A stretch of 64,000 nt of DNA, from assembly GCA_032358165.1 (NCBI GenBank), contig JAALGY010000001.1, positions 1,488,001-1,552,000 on the forward strand. The letters are read 5' to 3'. Positions 28,917-39,635 of the stretch are shown here, piece after piece (position 1 is the stretch's first letter; the number at the start of each line of letters is the position of its first letter). The position numbers and the translations under genes were made by a program. This DNA is from Diplosphaera chodatii (lineage: Eukaryota; Chlorophyta; Trebouxiophyceae; Prasiolales; Stichococcaceae). The notes beneath the pieces are model-generated. The model ran no database searches. It was not told the origin of the DNA and worked only from the letters and a program-made list of their open reading frames with translations.

Positions 28917-31900
28917 TCACAGCAGCTCGCCGGGGAAGCCAGCGTCCCTCACGAGCACCGACTCCACGGCAGCCGGCGCAGCGTTGAAGCCGCAGCTGGC
29001 GGCCGAGCCAATGGCACGAATTGCGCGCCATTCGGAGCCGGCCAGAGCGTCAGCCTGCGGCAGCACAGCTGGAGCATCACGACCACTGTGACAGATCGCT
29101 GCAGCGCATTGTCTTTGGCAAGTTCTGTTGTGAGCCAGGGTGTCCCTACACACTGGCCAGTACCAGCCAGGTTTGGGCTCTGCCGGTGCACCATCTGAGC
29201 AGCACCTGCTGCAACAGCTAACAACAAGGCGCCTGGCAAATTGGCACACCATACTTCCCACCTTCATACGCACACAAGTCAGTTGCACCTGGGTGCCGGT
29301 GGCCTTCAGCGCAGCGGTCAGCGGGTACAGCAGGCCCCACGAGTCCAGGCGGCGCACGAAACTCGGCACGGCGTGCCACTTCAGCCGCGCCTTTGCAGCT
29401 GCACAAAGTGCGACACCACTTCTGTGTGCTGTGGGCATGAATCTCGCCGTCGCAACATGCTCTGCAGCAGCTTTGGCAGCACACTCGTTTGCCCCAGCCC
29501 ACATATGTGGAAGTCATCTCCAACATCCGTGTGGCAGCTGAGCGCTTCACAGCATCACATCGAGTGACAACAGCCTGTTGCAGCTTGTCATGGCTGCACC
29601 ATACCTGCAGCGTGGCGGATGGCTTCGCTGTCCTTTGCGCTCAGGTGCAGGTAGTTGCCAAAACTGGATGCAGCGATGCCGTCAACAAGCGTGTTGCCTG
29701 CAGATGTCATGTACGACCTGTACATCTGGCAAGTATGACTTTGCACCGCCGCCGCAGCAGTGACCATCATCAGCAGCAGAGGCCATTGCCAGCGGTGCGC
29801 AGCATGACAGAAAGATGTTGCCACAGCAGTTGAAGGTTACCACGCAGTGTGTGGACGGCGTAAGCGGTCGGCAGCTTGACAGGCGTGATGTCTACTACCG
29901 CAGCTGTAGTGACAGCGTCGGTGCTGGGCAGCTGGACAAACAGAGCGTCACCAACCTGCAGGTGTTCAGTGCACATCCTATGTTGGTACTCAGCCAGCAG
30001 TCGAACGAAGTCACGCCCATCGCTACACCCAAAGAGAGCAGATGTGGGCGAAGATGCTTGCAACAAGGTCTGCAAGGTCTCTGCGGTGGCGGTGGTTTGC
30101 TGATGGTGCTGCGCACCTTGACATCACGCGCGAAGACTGGCAGGCGCTCCGCAAATGACGCCCCTGTGGTGTTGCCAGGTGTGGCGCCCGGCAGGGCAGT
30201 GGCTGTGGTGTACACGATGTGGTTTGGCGTTGTCGTCATCACCTGCGGTTCATGGAGCGAAGATCTGATCCAACAACGACGATTTGCTCAAGCAGCTGCC
30301 GCTGGGCACGTTTGGTCCACCACTGCTGGTCATCAAGCATGACTCAGCGCTGTTGGTGTGCCTGTCCGCTTGCGGTCGTCAGGCGCAGGTAGGTGATGGG
30401 CGCCAGGTCGGGGTGGAAGCTGGGGTGCATCACCACCGGCGACCAGGCCAGTGCGCCGTCCTCGTTGACCACCTGGGCAGTGACAACTTCCAGTCCGCTG
30501 GGGACCTTGATAGGGGCTACCAGCATGATGCACAACGAAGTGCAGGCCTGCAGACATCCAGCAGGCACCAGGTGCAGACCGACATGTCCTGACATATGCA
30601 GCTGTGCACCATGCAGGTTCCTCGATTGACTTTGGCAGGAGTGCTGCCTTGCCGCTCACCATCACAACGTCTCCGGGCACGGTGTCGGCAATCCGGCGGG
30701 ACTCGGGCATGCCCTGCTCTGGGTCCCGCACCAGCAGCTGGCTGTCGCCATGGAAGCAGAAGACTGCGTGCAGCACCAGGTGCCGATTCAACGTCGACTC
30801 TCTGGCGTGATCCGACCCGCACGTTCTGGGTGCACTCGCTTGGGCCATCAGCTCACAGACATGCAGCCACGGTTTATTAACATCTGCTGTGAGGACGAGC
30901 GCCAGGCTGGGTTCATATGCGTGTGCTTGGAAGTCAACATGTGTTTACGCACTGCATCGTCCGCTAGATAGTAGTGGTGTCGACCAAGTGACGGAATGCT
31001 CAGCAGACTGCATGGATAGCGAATGTACTCACAACAGGTGCCCTGGCACATGTCGCCCGCCATACAGGAGTTGACGCACCCAGCGGGACACGGTGACCCA
31101 CGTGGTATAGAATTTGGTGGGGGACACGCTGCATACCAGCGAATGTTGCGCATGTCAGCCACGCACAGCCAAGCATCAGGCTGTAAAATGCTGTGCAACG
31201 TACGAAGGTTCAGCACAGCTGGCTGATGTCGCAGCCTCTGCAGCACTTGCAGGCAAGCTCCACTTTGCTGGTGTCGATGCCTCGCAGCGTGAGGGCGCAA
31301 CAGGCAGGCGAGTCACTGGCCATGCATTGCAGTAGCTCACGGGCTGGTGGAGGCGGCTTGGCGGGAGCTGGTGGCGACGGCGGATCGGGGGGCGGTGCAG
31401 GGGGCGGAGAAGGCGGGGGCGGTGAGGGCGGCGGTGGCGGCGGCGGGCTCGGCGGCGGGGCGGGGGGTGGTGAAGGGGGCGGCGGGCTTGGAGGCGGGGG
31501 CGGAGGCGGGCTCGGCGGCGGCGGGCCTGCAGGTGCGCGAGCCAGCGGCATGACTCATCACTGCTTGTACCCTTGTTTGCATTCACCACCCACGCCTAAT
31601 CTGGATGAGGAGGGTCCAACCAACTGGCGGGTCATCCCAAGGGGCTGCCGCTTGGCAACACATGTATATTGGGCAACTTCAGCAGCTGTTCCCATACCGG
31701 GCAGCTTGTGGGCAATAATCATACACACAGGCTGCGACTGTCGGCACATGCAGTGTCGCTGGGGCAATAAGTATGCCCTGGAGCTCACTTGGCGCTGTGC
31801 ACGTGGTGCGCTCCGTGTTGACAGACCAACCCACAGGGCAAGTCGAGCATGACGCCTGCAAGTGGGCATTCGCATGCTGTCAGAGGATAGTTTTCATGCA

Positions 31901-32067
31901 TGATAGCATCAGGACAATAGTTGGGGGCATTTGCGACTGGCAAACTGCAGGCAGCTGTGCAGTTGACCTGGCCGGTTTCGGACTGGTAGCGCTGGCCGCC
32001 ATCAGACGCCGTCCCCTGGCACAGCCGACACACAAAGACGCCCGGCCCGGCCTTGGCAAAGCCCTTG
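28917..32067 (-). CDS. Pro-rich rod plus Hint domain protein, copy C (5' end missing or unresolved)
   Basis: Exons in consistent phase: 32067-31968, 31855-31789, 31526-31341, 31128-31033, 30763-30660, 30472-30362, 30242-30117, 29955-29841, 29697-29605, 29398-29289, 29054-28917 (about 415 aa visible). Two cysteine modules (KGFAKAGPGVFVCRLCQGT; CSTCPVGWSVNTERTTC) lead straight into a Pro-rich rod, a Cys linker (CVNSCMAGDMCQGTC) and then a Hint domain: FFCFHGDSQLL with the entry Cys, the TPNH motif (TxxH), a PVFARDVKVGD turn and AYAVHTLRGNTLVDGIAASS. The domain ends in a ~90-residue extension finishing GFPGELL. Hint domains catalyse an N-to-S acyl shift at the entry Cys in hedgehog and inteins. 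No signal peptide is found; only ~245 bp separate the first exon from the stop codon of copy B, so this copy is probably 5'-truncated. Intron 30361-30243 has a GC donor. Confidence 0.75.
31341..31526 (-). repeat. Ser/Pro-rich rod of copy C
   Basis: A 186-base exon encoding about 61 residues, mostly SPPPP and APPP units with a DPPSPPAPAKPPPPA end. It is flanked by the cysteine modules and the Cys linker of the Hint gene. Confidence 0.85.
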
Positions 32068-32311
32068 CTGCAGCGTCAGCATGCCATTTCATCAGCACAG
32101 CACAAGGTCCAGCATCTGTGCATGGCGCTGTTGGACGTTCAGATAGAGGGCGAAGGCCAGCCGGGTGCAGTGATAGCATGGCGTTGTTGTGTTAGTTGCG
32201 GGTGCATGAAAGCCCTCATGTTTGCAAGTGAGTGTACGTGAAGCACTGCGCACCGGCAAGGACTGCGCCGACCGTCCTTGTTGGGCTCGTGGCCTGCACG
32301 TGCCCACATCC

Positions 32312-34171
32312 TCACAGCAGCTGGCCGGGGAAGCCTGCATCCTTCACGAGCGCTGATTCCAAAGCTGCCGGCACAGCGTTGAAGCCGCAGCTGGCAGCTG
32401 AGCCCACGGCACGGACTGCGCCCCAGTCAGAACTGGCCAGAGTGTCGGCCTGCAGCAGCAGGGAAGGAACTGACCCGGGGCATTGTGATCACGGTCACAG
32501 TATAGTGCCTTGCACCAGTGCTGTACTGGATGACTGCAACTGCCTGCTACTGAGCGGGCGTACGTGAAGGCCATGCAGGCTTGTGTAGCATCGTCTGCAG
32601 CAGCAAATGATGATATGGACCGCATCCTCACACACTTGCCAATGTGCACAGCTTCGAAGAGCTGGTGGCGCACCTGAGTGCCCGCGGCCTTCAGGGCAGC
32701 GGTGAACGGGTACAGCAGGCCCCACGAGTCCAGTCGGCGCACGAAGCCTGGCGCAGCGTGCCACATCAGCCGCGCCTTGGCAGCTGCAAAGTGCATCACA
32801 CAATTCCATCTGGCGATCTGGCACGTGCCCAACATCACGGCTGCAACAGCTGCAGCGAAAAGCCACATGCAGCCTGGAACATGCAATGTTCAAGATCCAA
32901 ACCAACAATTCAATGCTATATGGACGCTAATCAAGTTGTGCTGCAGCCTACTGTTCACGGCCGCACCTGCGGCATGGCGGGTGGCTTCGCTGTCCCTGGC
33001 GCTCAGGTGCAGGTAGGTGCCGAAGTTGGACGCCGCGATGCCGTCAACGATTGTATTGCCTACAAGTTCATGTTCGCCAACATGAGCACGTCTACTTCTG
33101 ACCACTGGCTACGGCAGGTGTCTCCATGTACACCACACAAGCCCATAACCAAAAAGGGTCCACCATGCATGGTACAACAGGGTGCCACAGCAGACAAACA
33201 TGACCCACCCCGCAGCGTGTGGACGGCGTAGGCGGTTGGTAGCGTGACGGGTGTGATGTCGACAATTGGGCTTGTGGCCACAGTGGCAGCGGTTGGCAGC
33301 TGCACAAACATCCTGTCGCCAACCTGTGGGTTCACATGAAGGCAATGTAGTCAAGTTGACCTTCATCATCTTGGGTTGAGCAAACGATCGATCAGCATCA
33401 CATCAGCATGAGCCTCCATTGATTGGGTGTCGGGTATTGGCAATGAACGAGTGTGCTAATTGTTGTTGCACACCTTGACATCGCGTGCGAAAAGCGGTAG
33501 GCGCTCAGCAAATGCACTGATTGTCGTGTTGTCGGGTGTGCCGCCTGGCAAGGCAGTCGCAGCGGTGTACACGATGTGGTTTGGTGTGGTCGTCATCACC
33601 TGCAGGACATGATGTATCGACCACATCTATTGACAGTGTAGTAATGAGACATTGAGTACTGTGCGTGCTCAGCCGTGCAGACGTGCAGCGCTGCATCGGT
33701 GATGTGAAGCATGGCGTGCCTGTCCGGTTGCGGTTGTCAGGCGCAGGTAGGTGATCGGTGCCAGGTCGGGGTGGAAGCTGGGGTGCATCACGACCGGCGA
33801 CCAGGCCAGGGCGCCGTCCTCGTTGACCACCTGCACAGATCATGTCATATTTGATGCACCTTTGAGGAGAGAGTCAAGTAGGGTTGGGGTTTTGTTCTTT
33901 GACGGCAACACAACTGAGTTTTGTGTTGGGGCACCATAGATGCTTCAGGCCCAGCACTGTGCAGCTCTGTTGCAACATTCGTAGTGCTGCGGCACTCAAG
34001 CGCCGTGGTTGTGACATGCATACTTGTGGATTGCCCAAGTGCTTACCATGACCACATCCCCAGGTACCGTGTCGGCAATGCGGCGGGACTCGGGCAGGCC
34101 CTTCTCTGGGTCCCGCACCACCAGCTGGCTGTCGCCGTGGAAGCAGATCCAAACTGCAGAAGGCGGCACAG
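32312..34171 (-). other. Hint (hedgehog/intein) domain of copy B
   Basis: Seven exons (34153 down to 32312) match the seven Hint exons of copy C one for one; the last six have identical lengths (111, 126, 115, 93, 110 and 138 bases) and the first differs by one codon (107 against 104). The entry Cys follows the Cys linker directly; TPNH supplies the Thr and His of the TxxH block; the domain closes with a TxxGNTIVDGIAAS segment like the end of hedgehog Hog domains. The rest (~90 residues) is unlike known cholesterol-binding regions and I cannot assign it. Confidence 0.8.
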
Positions 34172-37100
34172 GTCGCAGGGTCAGCTCCAAGCATCTAGTG
34201 CGGTCACACCCACTGTCCAGGGGCCACCTTGCTTGCTGTCATAGGTGGCCAGGCCGGCAGCACCGACCACGACAAGCGTGCGCATGAGACCATGCTGCAA
34301 AGGCAGAAAAATCTACGGACGTGTTGCCATCAGTCATGAGTGTGCTCGAGGGCAGTTTTCTGGCTCAGCAGGGGGATAAACCGGACTCACCGCATTGGCT
34401 GCCAGCGCAGTAGTAATCTACCGTACAGGTGAATGGGCACTCCATTCAATCCATTCATTGGACACCGTTCAGGGACCGGGTTCGATCCCTGGCGGTGGCG
34501 GAAGTTTCGGGTCTAGTTCCGTGTGGGACCAACCCACCCCACCCTATGCAAGTGGTTGCTTCGGCAATCTGCCCTCCATGGTTTGTGTATATAAGTCGTT
34601 GAAAAACGCAATACACAAACAGCCTTCCGGTCAAAGGTCCTTTTCCATCGCTATTTGCACTTCCCTTACCGCTATCCACTGGTCGGAACAGGTGCCTCCA
34701 GGCGGTATGGAACTTTTCGCAGGACACGCTGCAGCATGACAATCAACGCAAGGTCGGCACACACAACAGCACTCATGTCAGCCAGATGTTGGTGTATTGG
34801 CACTTAGAACTGCAGGGCCGCACAAGCAACCATGCAACCATGTGCATGATTTCGAGCAGTAGCTCACGCGGGGGCTTGAGGGGAGGTGGTGGGGATGGTG
34901 GTGGGGATGGCGGAGGGGCCGGGGGTGGACTGGGCGGGGGGGATGGCGGCGGCGCAGGCGGTGGTGACGGCGGCGGGGCAGGCGGCGGGGACGGCGGCGG
35001 GGCCGGTGGCGGCGACGGCGGCGGCGTTGGCGGCGGTGATGGCGGTGGTGCAGGCGGCGGTGACGGCGGCGGCGCGGGGGGCGGGGATGGAGGCGGTGCA
35101 GGTGGCGGTGATGGCGGTGGTGCAGGTGGTGGGCTGGGTGGTGGCGCGGGGGGCAGGGACGGAGGTGGGTTTGGTGGCGGTGATGGCGGTGGTGCAGGCG
35201 GCGGCGACGGCGGCGGCGCGGGTGGCGGTGCTGGTGGAGGGGATGGCGGCGGCATGGGTGGTGGGCTGGGTGGCGGCATCGGAGGTGGGCTGCAGCGGAG
35301 GAGGCACGAAGAGGTCAGGGTCACAAGCACAGGCAGCAAACGCTGGGTATGCAAATGCCATTTCGAAAGTAGGCATGAGAGCTGTGACGCACTGCCCTGG
35401 CTGTACGCCACCTGGTCTGTACGGTGCACACCTGGGTGGCGGGCTTGGCGGCGGCGCCGGCGGTGGGCTGGGCGGCGGCGTGGGCGGGGGGCTGGCAGGC
35501 GGGGTGCTGACAGGGGGCGAGACAGCCACAGGCGGAATGCCATCAGGGGGCGGCGTGGTGTCCGCCGGCGGCGATAGCGCCGCGCTGCAGGCATGCAGAA
35601 GTAGATGAGTGTGCGGCCTCGTGTGGATGAGCAAGGCCGGACAGTGAGTGTGATGGCTCGGCACCCTTGCGCCAGACCGGTGGTGTCGGCATGAAAACAC
35701 CGCACGAGTGACATGCTGGCCTACAGCACATCTGCCGAGCGTGCGCTGTGCTGCAGTTGCTCGCAACCCAGGAGGCGCTGCTCACCTGGGCGGCGGCGGC
35801 GGCGATGCTGCCTCTGCAACGAAGATGTTGATGGAGCCGATGGCCTGGCCATACGTGGTAGTGCCCTGCAGCAGCCGCCGGCCGGCACTCTGCAGGCGCA
35901 AGTGCAGTTTGCGGCACGCTGTCAACAGGAAGACTGCTTCTGTAAAGTCCAGCCCCTGTTCTCGTTGTTGTCAGCATGCAAGCAGTCTACAAAGACGTGG
36001 CCACTGGCAGCTGAAACGTCTGGAGCATGTTACCAAGACTGGGTTTCACATGCAAAGTTCGATGGCACGAGTAAGGATCACACAGGCGTCAGCTGAGATA
36101 CTGGTAATGTGGGGGGCGCTCACGGTCTGCTCAGCTGCGGCGGGCGTGAAGCAGGTGATGGTGCGGTTGCCCGGAACCAGGTTGTTGACGATGACAGTGA
36201 AGGGCATCTCGCCCATAGCCTGCAGCAATGCACGAGCCAAGGGGTGAGGTCACATTGCTCGGTTTGGGCCCTGACACGCTCCAGCACACTCCGACCAATG
36301 CAGCGCATGTACACACTGCTGTCAGCAGCTGGACCGCTAAGGTTGACAGCAGCATGCCCTGCTCACCTGGGTAGAGCCGGTGACCTGCGGCGCATCGTTG
36401 TCAGTGCACGTCACAGTCCGGTTGAAGTCGGGGCCATCTGCTGGTCCAGCGTACGACAGCCTGTCGATTGCACATCGCCGACGTCAACTCAGTAGGTACG
36501 CCTGATACATCGGGGCATGCTTGTGCACTCGCGCAAGGGCAGGGTATGTACTGGTAGCCTTCTCTCGTGCAGAGAGGTGCACAGCAGCATGTTGGGCGAC
36601 AAAGGGCCAGGTGTTTGACTGCACAAGAGTGTTCCACTGGCAATCACACTCGTGCATTGCAGGGCTTCTACTGCGTGGGGCATACAGATCGTCTGTGACT
36701 GTCTGAGTTACTTCGTTCGTGTTGACGGACCTGCCGGTAATGTTGAGGCTTCCGCCAGCTGTGAGGGTCGTCCCAGTGGAGTTGTCAGTGGGCTGAGCCT
36801 GCAGACCTGTGATTGTGGTCATCATCACAGGCGGCGGTGGCGGCGGCGGCGGGCTCGCGTTCGGGGGGGCTGCAAAGTCAACATAAACTCTGTCAGTAGT
36901 GCGACAGTCAGGTTACCAGGTAAGTAGGGATCATGCGACCAGGGCGGCGGCTGTTGTGCGCATGCTGGCAAACTGATGACTGTCCGGCCACAATGAGCGT
37001 GCAGGAATTAGGCAGGCCACACCCTCGGGCAGCCCTTACTCACGTGTGCAGCGGGTGCGGTCCGATGACACGGTGCCACCAGGCGCGCTGCGCAGAACAA

Positions 37101-39635
37101 GCACCCACATGTCATGATCTTGCACAGAGGGGCTGCCGGCTGCAGCTTTGACTGGTAATCAAGTCACTTGTTGACGGTAGGTTGCATGGCGCTGGGCATT
37201 GAAGTCCATCCTCATCATCCACACTCGCCATGCCATCGCATGGGGGCTCAAGGTTGATGTGCTTCACAGCTTCCAGCTGTCGTGCATGCTGAGGGGTTGC
37301 TCGCCACACAGGGGGCTCAGTGCGTTCTGTTATGCGCACCACTCCTGGCAGCCGGTGGCGCCCCTGATGGCAGAGAACTTCTGGCCGCCCCTGGCGCCGG
37401 TGCCGGTGCAACGCGTGCACTTGCCGTTGAATGTACCCTGCTTCGCGAAGCCTGCAGCCACCACACAGCATCAGATTGTCGGTGAAGGCCAATGAGTTCA
37501 AGCAGCTGTTGCTGCATGTGCCATGCTGGAAGGAACGACCTCGAGGAGCCATGACATATGCACCAGGTAGTTGCATGAGGCCATGGAGTGCATGAGCTGG
37601 GGGTGGGGCTGGTGGTCCAGATGTCACAACATGCTAGAACTCATGGTCGCACCTCTCTGGCAGGCCACAGGGAGTGGTCCGGGTCCGGGCTCATACCCGG
37701 GGCCAGCTGTGCAGAAGGTGCGGTCGTTGCGGACCAAACCTGTGGCAGAGGACTGAAACTTGATCAGAGGTTGCGCGATGTGCATCGCTGCTCGTGGTCA
37801 GGCTTTGCTGGTGCATGTTCAGCTTGTGGCCAGCTTAGTTTGCTGGCATCAACCAGAGCTTTGCTCACCGCGGGGGCACAGCTCGCAGTTCCTGCGGCCC
37901 GTGAAAGGCTGGAACTGGCGCTCTCCGTCGCACGGCTGGCACAGCGCGTTGCCCGCCCTCGCCTTGAAGGTACCTGATCGAGCAGATGTCAGACCAAGTG
38001 AGACAACAGTCTGACAGGCCCCCATGACTAGCAGCACCAGGCGGTGCCTCAAGCAAGCGCAGAAGCCTGTGCCTGTGCTTGGCACATAGCTCTATGCAAG
38101 TCTATGCAAGTCTTGCAACGGTCATGCCACTGCACATGCGATGACACGAGCTGATGCGACACCAGCGCATTGTGGCGTGAGGGGACCGGACCAGTAACTG
38201 TGGGTTGCGCACTGCAAGCACGACAAGGCAACATGCCAGAAATTCGCACCCTTGGGGCAGGGCACAGAGCCCCTGGGTCCAGGCTGGAAGCCAGGGGCGG
38301 CACTGCAGCTCCTGCGGTCCCTAGAAATGGTGCCTGCATGACATTTGAAGACAAACATGAGGTTTGCAAGATACTCAGCCAAGGGTTTTCGACCATGCAT
38401 CAAAGACCTTGCAAGTGGCTTTCGACACAGCACGTGTTGGACGACGTGTTATGGTTCGAGTTGCAGCTTAGCACTCACCGATGCATCGCAGGCAGATGGC
38501 GGATGCAGCGTTCGGCTGGTACAGGTTGCTGAAGTTGCACGGGGTGCACCTCCCATTGCCCGCGTCCTCTGCAGCACTGGATAGGCCACCATCAGCGCCA
38601 GGCCCTCAAAATCACACATCTGTGATGGCTGCGGCACAAACACACATGCACACAGCATGCTGCAGAGCGCACACCATGCACGGAACACATGCAGCAGGTA
38701 GCTGGATGTTATGGACTTGATGCTGGGTAAGGAGGCAAGATGCAGCTGGTCAGCTGCTGCGCGCAGTCAGCTGCTCACCCTTGGCGGTGCCGGGGGGGCA
38801 CGGGGTTGGGAAGCCGTTCCTGCCGAGGGTGTAGCCGGGAAGCGGGATGCACTTGGTGCGTGTGAGGTCCACTATGCCGGCTCCACGTGGGCACGTCAGG
38901 CACACTGCGCAGGAGCACGGACACCAATCAGGGTCGGGGTTCGGGGTGCACAAGCAGTGAAGCACAGGCGGCAGCGCTGCCGCAGACGACAATGACTGCA
39001 AGTTGCAACCTCACGGCGGAGGTCTGAAATGTCCTCGTTAGAGCGGTGCTGCATTGCCAAAGCATGAGCCACACGAGACATCGATCATTACACTCCACAG
39101 CGCTTGTGGCCATATGGTGATAAGCCAGGGAGCATGTAGTGTTGGTACCCTTGCAGCCAAGTATGCGGGGTTTTATATTCGAAGGTCTGTGTGATGGTCA
39201 AGGGGCGGGGCCGGCGGCGCACCTCGCTGGCCGGCGCGTGGCTGGAAGTCGGTGCTGGCAGCACGTCCGCACCGCTTGCACTTGAAGGCGCCGGGGCCGC
39301 TCTTGGCGAACCCGGGGCGGCACGGCACGACCCGCCCATTGGGGCCGGGCTCCTGGCCAGGACCGCACGCTGCGACATACGTGAAGGCACAGTAAGACAC
39401 CCGGAGGGTAGATGCAAGGAAGTGCGACATGCGCAGAGCACAGGAGTGACTTGGAACCTTGAGCGCTGCAGTACGGAATTTGGGTGCATGCACGGCACGG
39501 CATTGCTGGGGGTGGTAGGCGATTACCAGGTGGCTTGGCGTCGGCTGGGGCGGAGAAGCTGAGCAACAGGGCCGCAGTGGCCAGCAGCAGGGCTGGCATG
39601 CCGCCAGACCGCAGCCGCAGGCACATCCGTGCCAT
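32312..39635 (-). CDS. Secreted Cys-rich / pherophorin-like / Pro-rich protein with C-terminal Hint domain, copy B
   Basis: Twenty-four exons give about 968 aa: 39635-39527, 39369-39223, 38904-38779, 38568-38479, 38333-38163, 37973-37869, 37739-37653, 37451-37340, 37087-37044, 36869-36731, 36460-36367, 36219-36124, ~35889-35786, 35584-35432, 35289-34868, 34728-34670, 34439-34391, 34153-34047, 33830-33720, 33599-33474, 33323-33209, 33059-32967, 32783-32674, 32449-32312. Order: signal peptide, cysteine modules (to ~330), pherophorin-like part, (S/A)PPP rod (~475-665), Cys linker (CPAKSS ... YYCAGSQC), Hint domain from about residue 703 (ICFHGDSQLVV, TPNH, LRGNTIVDGIAASN), end GFPGQLL. The Pro-rich exon, linker and Hint exons join in phase, which is why I treat them as one gene rather than two. 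Exon 13 has a 4-base loss and 3-base gain against copy A; frame is kept only if a later acceptor is used. The alternative is that B is broken there. Confidence 0.72.
34463..34500 (+). other. tRNA T-arm-like hairpin with Pol III B box inside an intron of copy B
   Basis: Positions 34476-34492 fold as a perfect T-arm: stem CCGGG/CCTGG around a TTCGATC loop, and GGTTCGATCCC at 34479-34489 fits the B-box consensus GGTTCGANNCC. CGGTGGC follows where an acceptor strand would be. A convincing 5' half (D-arm, anticodon arm, A box) is not seen, so this is not called a tRNA gene. It lies in the 230-base intron 34440-34669, which copy C does not have; a tRNA-derived SINE remnant is the likely explanation. 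Confidence 0.4.
34868..35289 (-). repeat. Ser/Pro-rich rod of copy B
   Basis: About 140 residues of SPPP/APPP units in one exon, ending with PPPLKPP and a GTGAGC donor. The donor and the following motif are the same as in copy C and absent in copy A. Confidence 0.9.

Follow-up and report, generated by a model that had tools for sequence, protein, structure and literature searches.

Outside animals, Hog proteins are known that end in a Hint domain with an adduct region, and in many of them the Cys of the SCYA motif is replaced (Burglin 2008, PMC2362128). Cyanidiophycean red algae have 10 Hog genes in one species and 17 in another (PMC13353863, PMC5405695); the function of the red-algal proteins is unknown, and matrix building via lipid modification has been named as a possible role (PMC13353863). 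A Hint gene of a brown alga has low expression in female gametes (PMC3879662). These and the other papers cited below are represented by excerpts, to which our statements on them refer. Our work concerns a window of 64,000 nucleotides from Diplosphaera chodatii (assembly GCA_032358165.1, contig JAALGY010000001.1, positions 1,488,001 to 1,552,000) and, on its minus strand, a gene that we call gene 1. Judged from its sequence, the C terminus of gene 1 is a Hint/Hog domain, and the family is real in a green alga, where it is joined to a wall-type Pro-rich rod. Papers on green-algal Hog proteins were absent from the open literature searched, a search in which most subscription papers and the protein databases lay outside the scope. 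Green-algal proteins that were named automatically, for example "Hint domain-containing protein," may well exist. In the excerpts of PMC2362128, "green alga" and "Chlamydomonas" are not mentioned.

The model that we favor, and to which we give about an even chance, is that gene 1 encodes a secreted precursor of Cys modules and Pro-rich rod, followed by a six-Cys linker and the Hog part, in which a thioester would form at Cys1 and the rod protein would then be handed to an acceptor, probably other than a sterol. The Hint identity had been proposed in a preliminary description of the locus from the motifs ICFHGDSQ, TPNH, and LRGNTIVDGIAAS, all of which are present in gene 1, and it is borne out by Pfam: PF01079 (Hint) matched the C terminus in hmmscan with an E-value of 7.3e-16 and a score of 58.8 bits, the curated cut-off being 29.7. 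The 11 family members scanned all matched the Pfam Hint family individually. When a family profile built from 11 sequences of this genome was searched against solved chains, the nearest relatives were Hedgehogs (6tyy, 2.2e-11; SHH, 3.5e-11; 1at0, 1e-10), and the profile also reached MJ0781 (E-value of 9e-4), which we take to be an intein. The Vint profile and VWA gave no Pfam match in the parts of gene 1 scanned.

Like the non-animal Hog proteins, of which the N terminus is of signal type where known and the N-terminal part is variable and often Cys bearing, gene 1 starts with a signal-type stretch and Cys-containing modules; unlike them, it carries Ephrin_rec_like modules ahead of Hint, together with a long rod rich in Pro and the six-Cys linker (PMC2362128). 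With the cyanidiophycean red algae, D. chodatii shares a multigene Hog family in an alga; the red-algal Hog parts are combined with kelch- and trefoil-like domains, and the excerpts do not mention a Pro rod such as that of gene 1 (PMC13353863, PMC5405695). Hedgehog (Drosophila, 1at0 and 6tyy; human SHH, 7e2i) and gene 1 have in common the Hint domain by profile, Cys1, and TxxH, whereas gene 1 differs in that the Asp base is Ser, the SCYA Cys is absent, the sterol region is not recognized, and no Hedge domain was found, Ephrin_rec_like being the sole family over the cut-off in the first 440 residues (with the rod left out of the scan).

An independent exon build returned the 24 phase-consistent exons of the preliminary description, with the same start (ATG at 39635) and stop (32312) and a single open frame of 945 residues; this gene structure stands except for exon 17, which is probably wrong, since the paralogs have an intron there. 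The hydrophobic stretch behind the earlier assignment of a signal peptide is also present, as the hydropathy maximum of the protein (residues 13 to 31), and by this measure it is a candidate signal peptide. The Cys modules match Ephrin_rec_like in four stretches (hmmscan with Pfam, E-value of 4.4e-9), with 25 Cys in residues 30 to 302, and the (S/A)PPP rod has 130 Pro in 192 residues; both had been described correctly. The pherophorin likeness ascribed to the segment between them is not supported: exons 10 to 13 match no Pfam family, and the pherophorin domain PF12499 (DUF3707) was not found in a genome search in which no control genome gave a match either. This segment of about 145 residues occurs in gene 1 and was not seen in the paralogs C51A and C51B.

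The arrangement of gene 1 is not confined to this gene. Three close copies, namely the neighboring gene 2 and the loci C51A and C51B on contig C51, are 82 to 84% identical to gene 1 over Hint and tail. Their parts follow one another in the same way, from Cys module and Pro rod through the linker with its six Cys to Hint and tail, and rod, linker, and Hint are joined in phase. The order of rod, Cys linker, and Hint noted earlier thus recurs in paralogs, and the linker can now be defined by its six Cys. That the rod exons and the Hint exons belong to separate messenger RNAs is very improbable, given the same rod-to-Hint order and matching phases in all three paralogs. Candidate hydrophobic signal-type starts lie upstream in C51A and C51B; splicing from these starts to the Cys modules is tentative. 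A search of the open literature did not find this module order, the replaced base, or the Cys 3 or 4 residues before Cys1 described below.

We compared the active site in an alignment of 12 rows, 11 from this genome and the relative P0004, with SHH and Drosophila Hedgehog as references. Thirteen multi-exon Hint models exist in the genome; two of them did not enter the alignment, C8b because of insertions and C53 because it scored low (151). One low-confidence insertion of 8 residues was taken out of C17a; C17a, C45, and C8a were trimmed before Cys1 or one residue ahead of it; and C32 and C27 were shortened at ends that aligned poorly. Cys1 and the His of TxxH are present in 12 of 12 rows, and the Thr is present in 11 (Ser in C32). 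The column of Asp303 in Drosophila Hedgehog (Asp243 in SHH) holds Ser in seven rows (gene 1, gene 2, C51A, C51B, C17a, C17b, and C45), Lys in two (C36 and C8a), and His in three (C32, C27, and P0004). At the position of the SCYA Cys, the 12 rows have Asn (six), Ser (four), or Gln (two). Visual inspection showed Cys1, TGCH, and a base-column Ser in C8b and a CF start, SADH, and His in C53.

In Hedgehog, the H329A mutant is inactive and T326A is strongly reduced; D303A retains cleavage by dithiothreitol (DTT) with incomplete cholesteroylation, and cleavage by DTT is more efficient in D303A, D303N, D303R, and D303E; D303H retains structure and activity and accepts a wider range of sterols (PMC9163320). 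Taking the Asp303-to-Ser replacement together with these mutants, we infer that thioester formation would be kept and sterol transfer weakened. The preliminary description had considered a lipid, a sugar, or another wall protein as the nucleophile; Ser in place of the sterol-activating Asp argues against a hedgehog-like cholesterol step and narrows the range of likely acceptors. Should the domain nevertheless act as in Hedgehog, an algal sterol or similar lipid would take the thioester, and the rod protein would be membrane anchored. The nearest solved relatives are Hedgehogs, the conserved tail occupies the place of the sterol recognition region, and the His found in three rows serves as a base in the D303H mutant of Hedgehog (PMC9163320). 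However, gene 1 belongs to the subfamily with Ser at this column and two more rows have Lys, the SCYA Cys is replaced throughout, and the Pfam match ends at position 162 of 213, so that we regard a sterol acceptor as distinctly unlikely.

Alternatively, the Hint domain could be a built-in maturation protease: water would take the thioester, Hint would remove itself, and the rod protein would be freed. The loss of the sterol base while Cys1 and TxxH are kept is consistent with this, as is the more efficient DTT cleavage of the Asp303 mutants of Hedgehog (PMC9163320). Against it stands the tail of about 95 residues, which is under selection and hard to explain without a bound partner. Among the four closest copies, the ratio of nonsynonymous to synonymous substitution rates (dN/dS) is 0.22 to 0.38 over the last 85 columns (tail) and 0.17 to 0.29 over Hint and tail. 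On balance we consider cleavage without attachment unlikely.

Under the model with a probably non-sterol acceptor, the precursor would be secreted, an N-to-S acyl shift would take place at Ile-Cys1 (residues 676/677), and the rod protein would be freed with the linker as its new C terminus; water or a wall component offering an amine, thiol, or hydroxyl would serve as the acceptor. The conservation of Cys1 and TxxH is consistent with cleavage at the linker/Cys1 junction, as had been suggested, and the acceptor is presumed not to be a sterol because the cholesterol-activating general base of Hedgehog is Ser in this subfamily. If rod proteins are indeed covalently joined to the wall, this would be a new way of building a plant-type extracellular matrix. 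The presence of Ser, Lys, and His at the sterol-base position within one genome also offers a natural experiment on which base goes with which acceptor.

Counted from Cys1, the last Cys of the linker is at −3 in gene 2, C51A, and C51B and at −4 in gene 1. Together with the replaced base, this sets the family apart from a plain further Hog member. In the MoaA intein of Pyrococcus abyssi, a disulfide between Cys-3 and Cys1 acts as a redox trap (PMC3922620); the position of the Cys in gene 2, C51A, and C51B is alike, here as a sequence pattern, whereas gene 1 has its Cys at −4 and the C-terminal motif of inteins was not seen. It is conceivable, though in our view quite improbable, that Cys1 is locked to the linker Cys at −3/−4 during secretion and that unlocking at the surface couples the rod proteins to the wall, so that Hint would be a redox-gated extracellular-matrix ligase in green algae. 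The Cys at −3 is a pattern in the sequence, and disulfides among the six Cys of the linker would be just as possible. An intein C terminus has His-Asn followed by Cys, Ser, or Thr and a C-extein; gene 1 has SNF at motif J and ends with the tail. Motif J has been equated with intein motif G (PMC2362128). An Asn aligned with that of inteins occurs in just 6 of 12 rows, and we therefore do not propose it as a second cleavage site.

The linker also explains where the earlier gene model goes wrong. In gene 2, C51A, and C51B, it is encoded by one exon with six Cys, in phase between the rod and Hint exons, whereas alignment with these copies shows that in gene 1 this exon is split by extra DNA after its first part. 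Removing an intron at 34669-34440 brings both linker parts into frame (phase 0 to 0) and gives a protein of 939 residues, with linker Cys at positions −38, −26, −19, −15, −9, and −4 relative to Cys1. Hence, exon 17 is probably better placed at 34439-34391; the exon proposed before falls, in the global alignment, where the other copies have an intron, although BLASTN similarity to C51A reaches just its last 4 bases. If the insert is retained, a stop within it ends the reading after residue 669, upstream of Hint. The insert (34678-34449) is a repeat that occurs at 39 other places in the genome over 230 to 237 bp with 99 to 100% identity (40 of 359 candidates scored), and 38 of the 39 other full copies listed are 100% identical over 230 to 231 bp. 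Because it is nearly identical to many copies, the repeat is young, and the gene 1 copy may at present be undergoing change through a mobile repeat. The copies examined measure 230 to 375 bp. They cover the 225-bp unit 1 to 1.7 times, as though it were circular, and differ in where they end; many copies of the repeat are grouped on few contigs. On the plus strand, the repeat scores 22.1 bits against the Rfam family mascRNA-menRNA, under the cut-off of 42.5, a weak tRNA-like likeness.

Several points weigh against the favored model for gene 1. The sequence of gene 1 by itself finds the Hedgehog chains weakly (6tyy, E-value of 0.2; 1at0, 0.75), and the unrelated enzyme 3ir3 (0.075) outranks them in this search. 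AlphaFold2 prediction on P0004 with a thin alignment (7 rows) gave a predicted local distance difference test score (pLDDT) of 48.9 and a predicted template modeling score (pTM) of 0.28, so the fold rests on the profiles. The residue before Cys1 is Ile in gene 1 and Phe in the three close copies; in Hedgehog, it is Gly. The case for a non-sterol acceptor would follow from a single argument, the lost base, and D303S is not among the mutants described in the excerpts of PMC9163320. Moreover, the repeat is younger than the divergence of the paralogs, and therefore dN/dS says nothing on the gene 1 copy after the insertion; the selection signal is older than the repeat and gives no assurance that gene 1 is still functional. 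The new intron also has a weak predicted acceptor site (GAG, with no pyrimidine tract). The Hint part of gene 1 would be reached only by the predicted splicing-out of the repeat or by a bypass through exon 17 of the preliminary description.

These last points bear on the possibility that the repeat has recently disabled gene 1, in which case the unspliced messenger RNA would give a rod protein without Hint while the paralogs keep the function. The nearly identical 230-bp insert in the linker exon, the stop met inside it upon read-through, and the weak acceptor would all fit; however, treating the repeat as an intron restores both linker parts in frame with the six-Cys pattern, and the exons downstream of the insert are open. 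We consider this rather unlikely.

Some support for the Hint exons comes from outside this genome. A metagenome protein, P0001, is 74% identical over 195 residues and is contiguous across the predicted exon junctions 20/21 to 23/24, which is compatible with an origin from RNA or with an intronless gene. Homologue searches yielded 3 fragments with a 308-residue query and 6 with the family alignment as the query; with the full-length query, no homologue of region 658 to 945 was found at an E-value of ≤0.01 among 7992 scored candidates. The searches with gene 1 and the family alignment returned no annotated green-algal protein, and a viral-contig scan returned no relatives of P0004.

Table 1. Features of gene 1 and gene 2, with positions counted from the first nucleotide of the window
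Feature	Position	Strand	Basis
Gene 1, entire; 24 exons, 939 residues in the corrected model	32312..39635	-	Phases consistent, no internal stops
Exon 1: ATG and hydrophobic stretch of signal type	39527..39635	-	Exon build; hydropathy
Exons 2-9: Cys modules (Ephrin_rec_like)	37044..39369	-	Pfam match
Exons 10-13: segment without Pfam match	35786..36869	-	Pfam scan, 0 families
Exons 14-15: (S/A)PPP rod	34868..35584	-	Exon build
Exon 16: first part of six-Cys linker	34670..34728	-	Alignment with copies
Inserted repeat, 225-bp unit plus 5 bp; carries the donor of predicted intron 34669-34440	34449..34678	-	Alignment, repeat search
Corrected exon 17: remainder of six-Cys linker	34391..34439	-	Cys pattern of gene 2, C51A, and C51B linker exons
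Exon 17 as first described, probably intron	34228..34294	-	Paralogs have an intron there (global alignment)
Exons 18-22: Hint domain	32967..34153	-	PF01079
Cys1 codon (residue 677), predicted catalytic	34143..34145	-	Alignment
Ser replacing Drosophila Hedgehog Asp303 (SHH Asp243)	33777..33779	-	Alignment
Intron 19, GC-AG	33600-33719	-	Donor identical in gene 1, gene 2, C51A, and C51B
TxxH (TPNH)	33576..33587	-	Alignment
Exons 22-24: conserved tail, ~95 residues, candidate adduct recognition region	32312..33059	-	Paralog comparison
Gene 2, tandem duplicate of gene 1 (3' half)	28920..32293	-	Paralog comparison
Gene 2 Cys-module exons	about 32293-32254, 32067-31968, 31855-31794	-	Paralog comparison
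Gene 2 linker exon, 3' of rod	31128-31033	-	Paralog comparison
Gene 2 Hint and tail exons	from about 30763 to 28920	-	Paralog comparison

Gene 2 opens with a mid-gene exon 18 bases past the stop of gene 1, and a signal-type start of its own was not seen. Its Hint part nevertheless has a dN/dS of 0.17 relative to gene 1. Since its first exon is in phase with gene 1 exons 1 to 7, gene 2 may supply gene 1 with an alternative 3' cassette. No Rfam family matched within the window at gathering scores, and the window has no tRNA.

The assembly searched has 85.6 Mb on 55 contigs. Its rbcL gene, on contig C55, agrees with the earlier assignment to a green alga, its top matches being 8q04 (1067 bits) and the group of 1gk8 (1064 bits), with 1gk8 presumably from Chlamydomonas reinhardtii; further chains, which we take to be from land plants, score about 990 to 1022 bits. 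By combining the 11 matches of Pfam Hint with the 70 exon matches of the gene 1 protein, we counted at least 21 Hint-encoding places. Upstream of Hint, C8b and C36 have Cys-module motifs and a PPPSPPP rod, and C45 has a PAPT-type stretch (all three without a splice model to Hint). The rod was not seen in 6 kb upstream of C17b or in >3 kb upstream of each of C32, C27, and C53. With C17a and C8a set aside because their upstream sequence was too short, a rod was seen at 7 of the 8 loci of the Ser or Lys type whose upstream sequence was long enough and at none of the 3 loci of the His type; C8b and C53 were assigned to their types by eye.

A second Hint subfamily lies on contigs C7, C13, C26, C27, C32, C35, and C53. 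Its start, where seen, is CFPAD or CFPAG (C26, C27, C32, C53, and both C7 loci), and TADH or SADH occurs in C26, C27, C13, C32, and C53. The relative P0004 is short and consists of a hydrophobic start, about 120 Cys-rich residues, and Hint.

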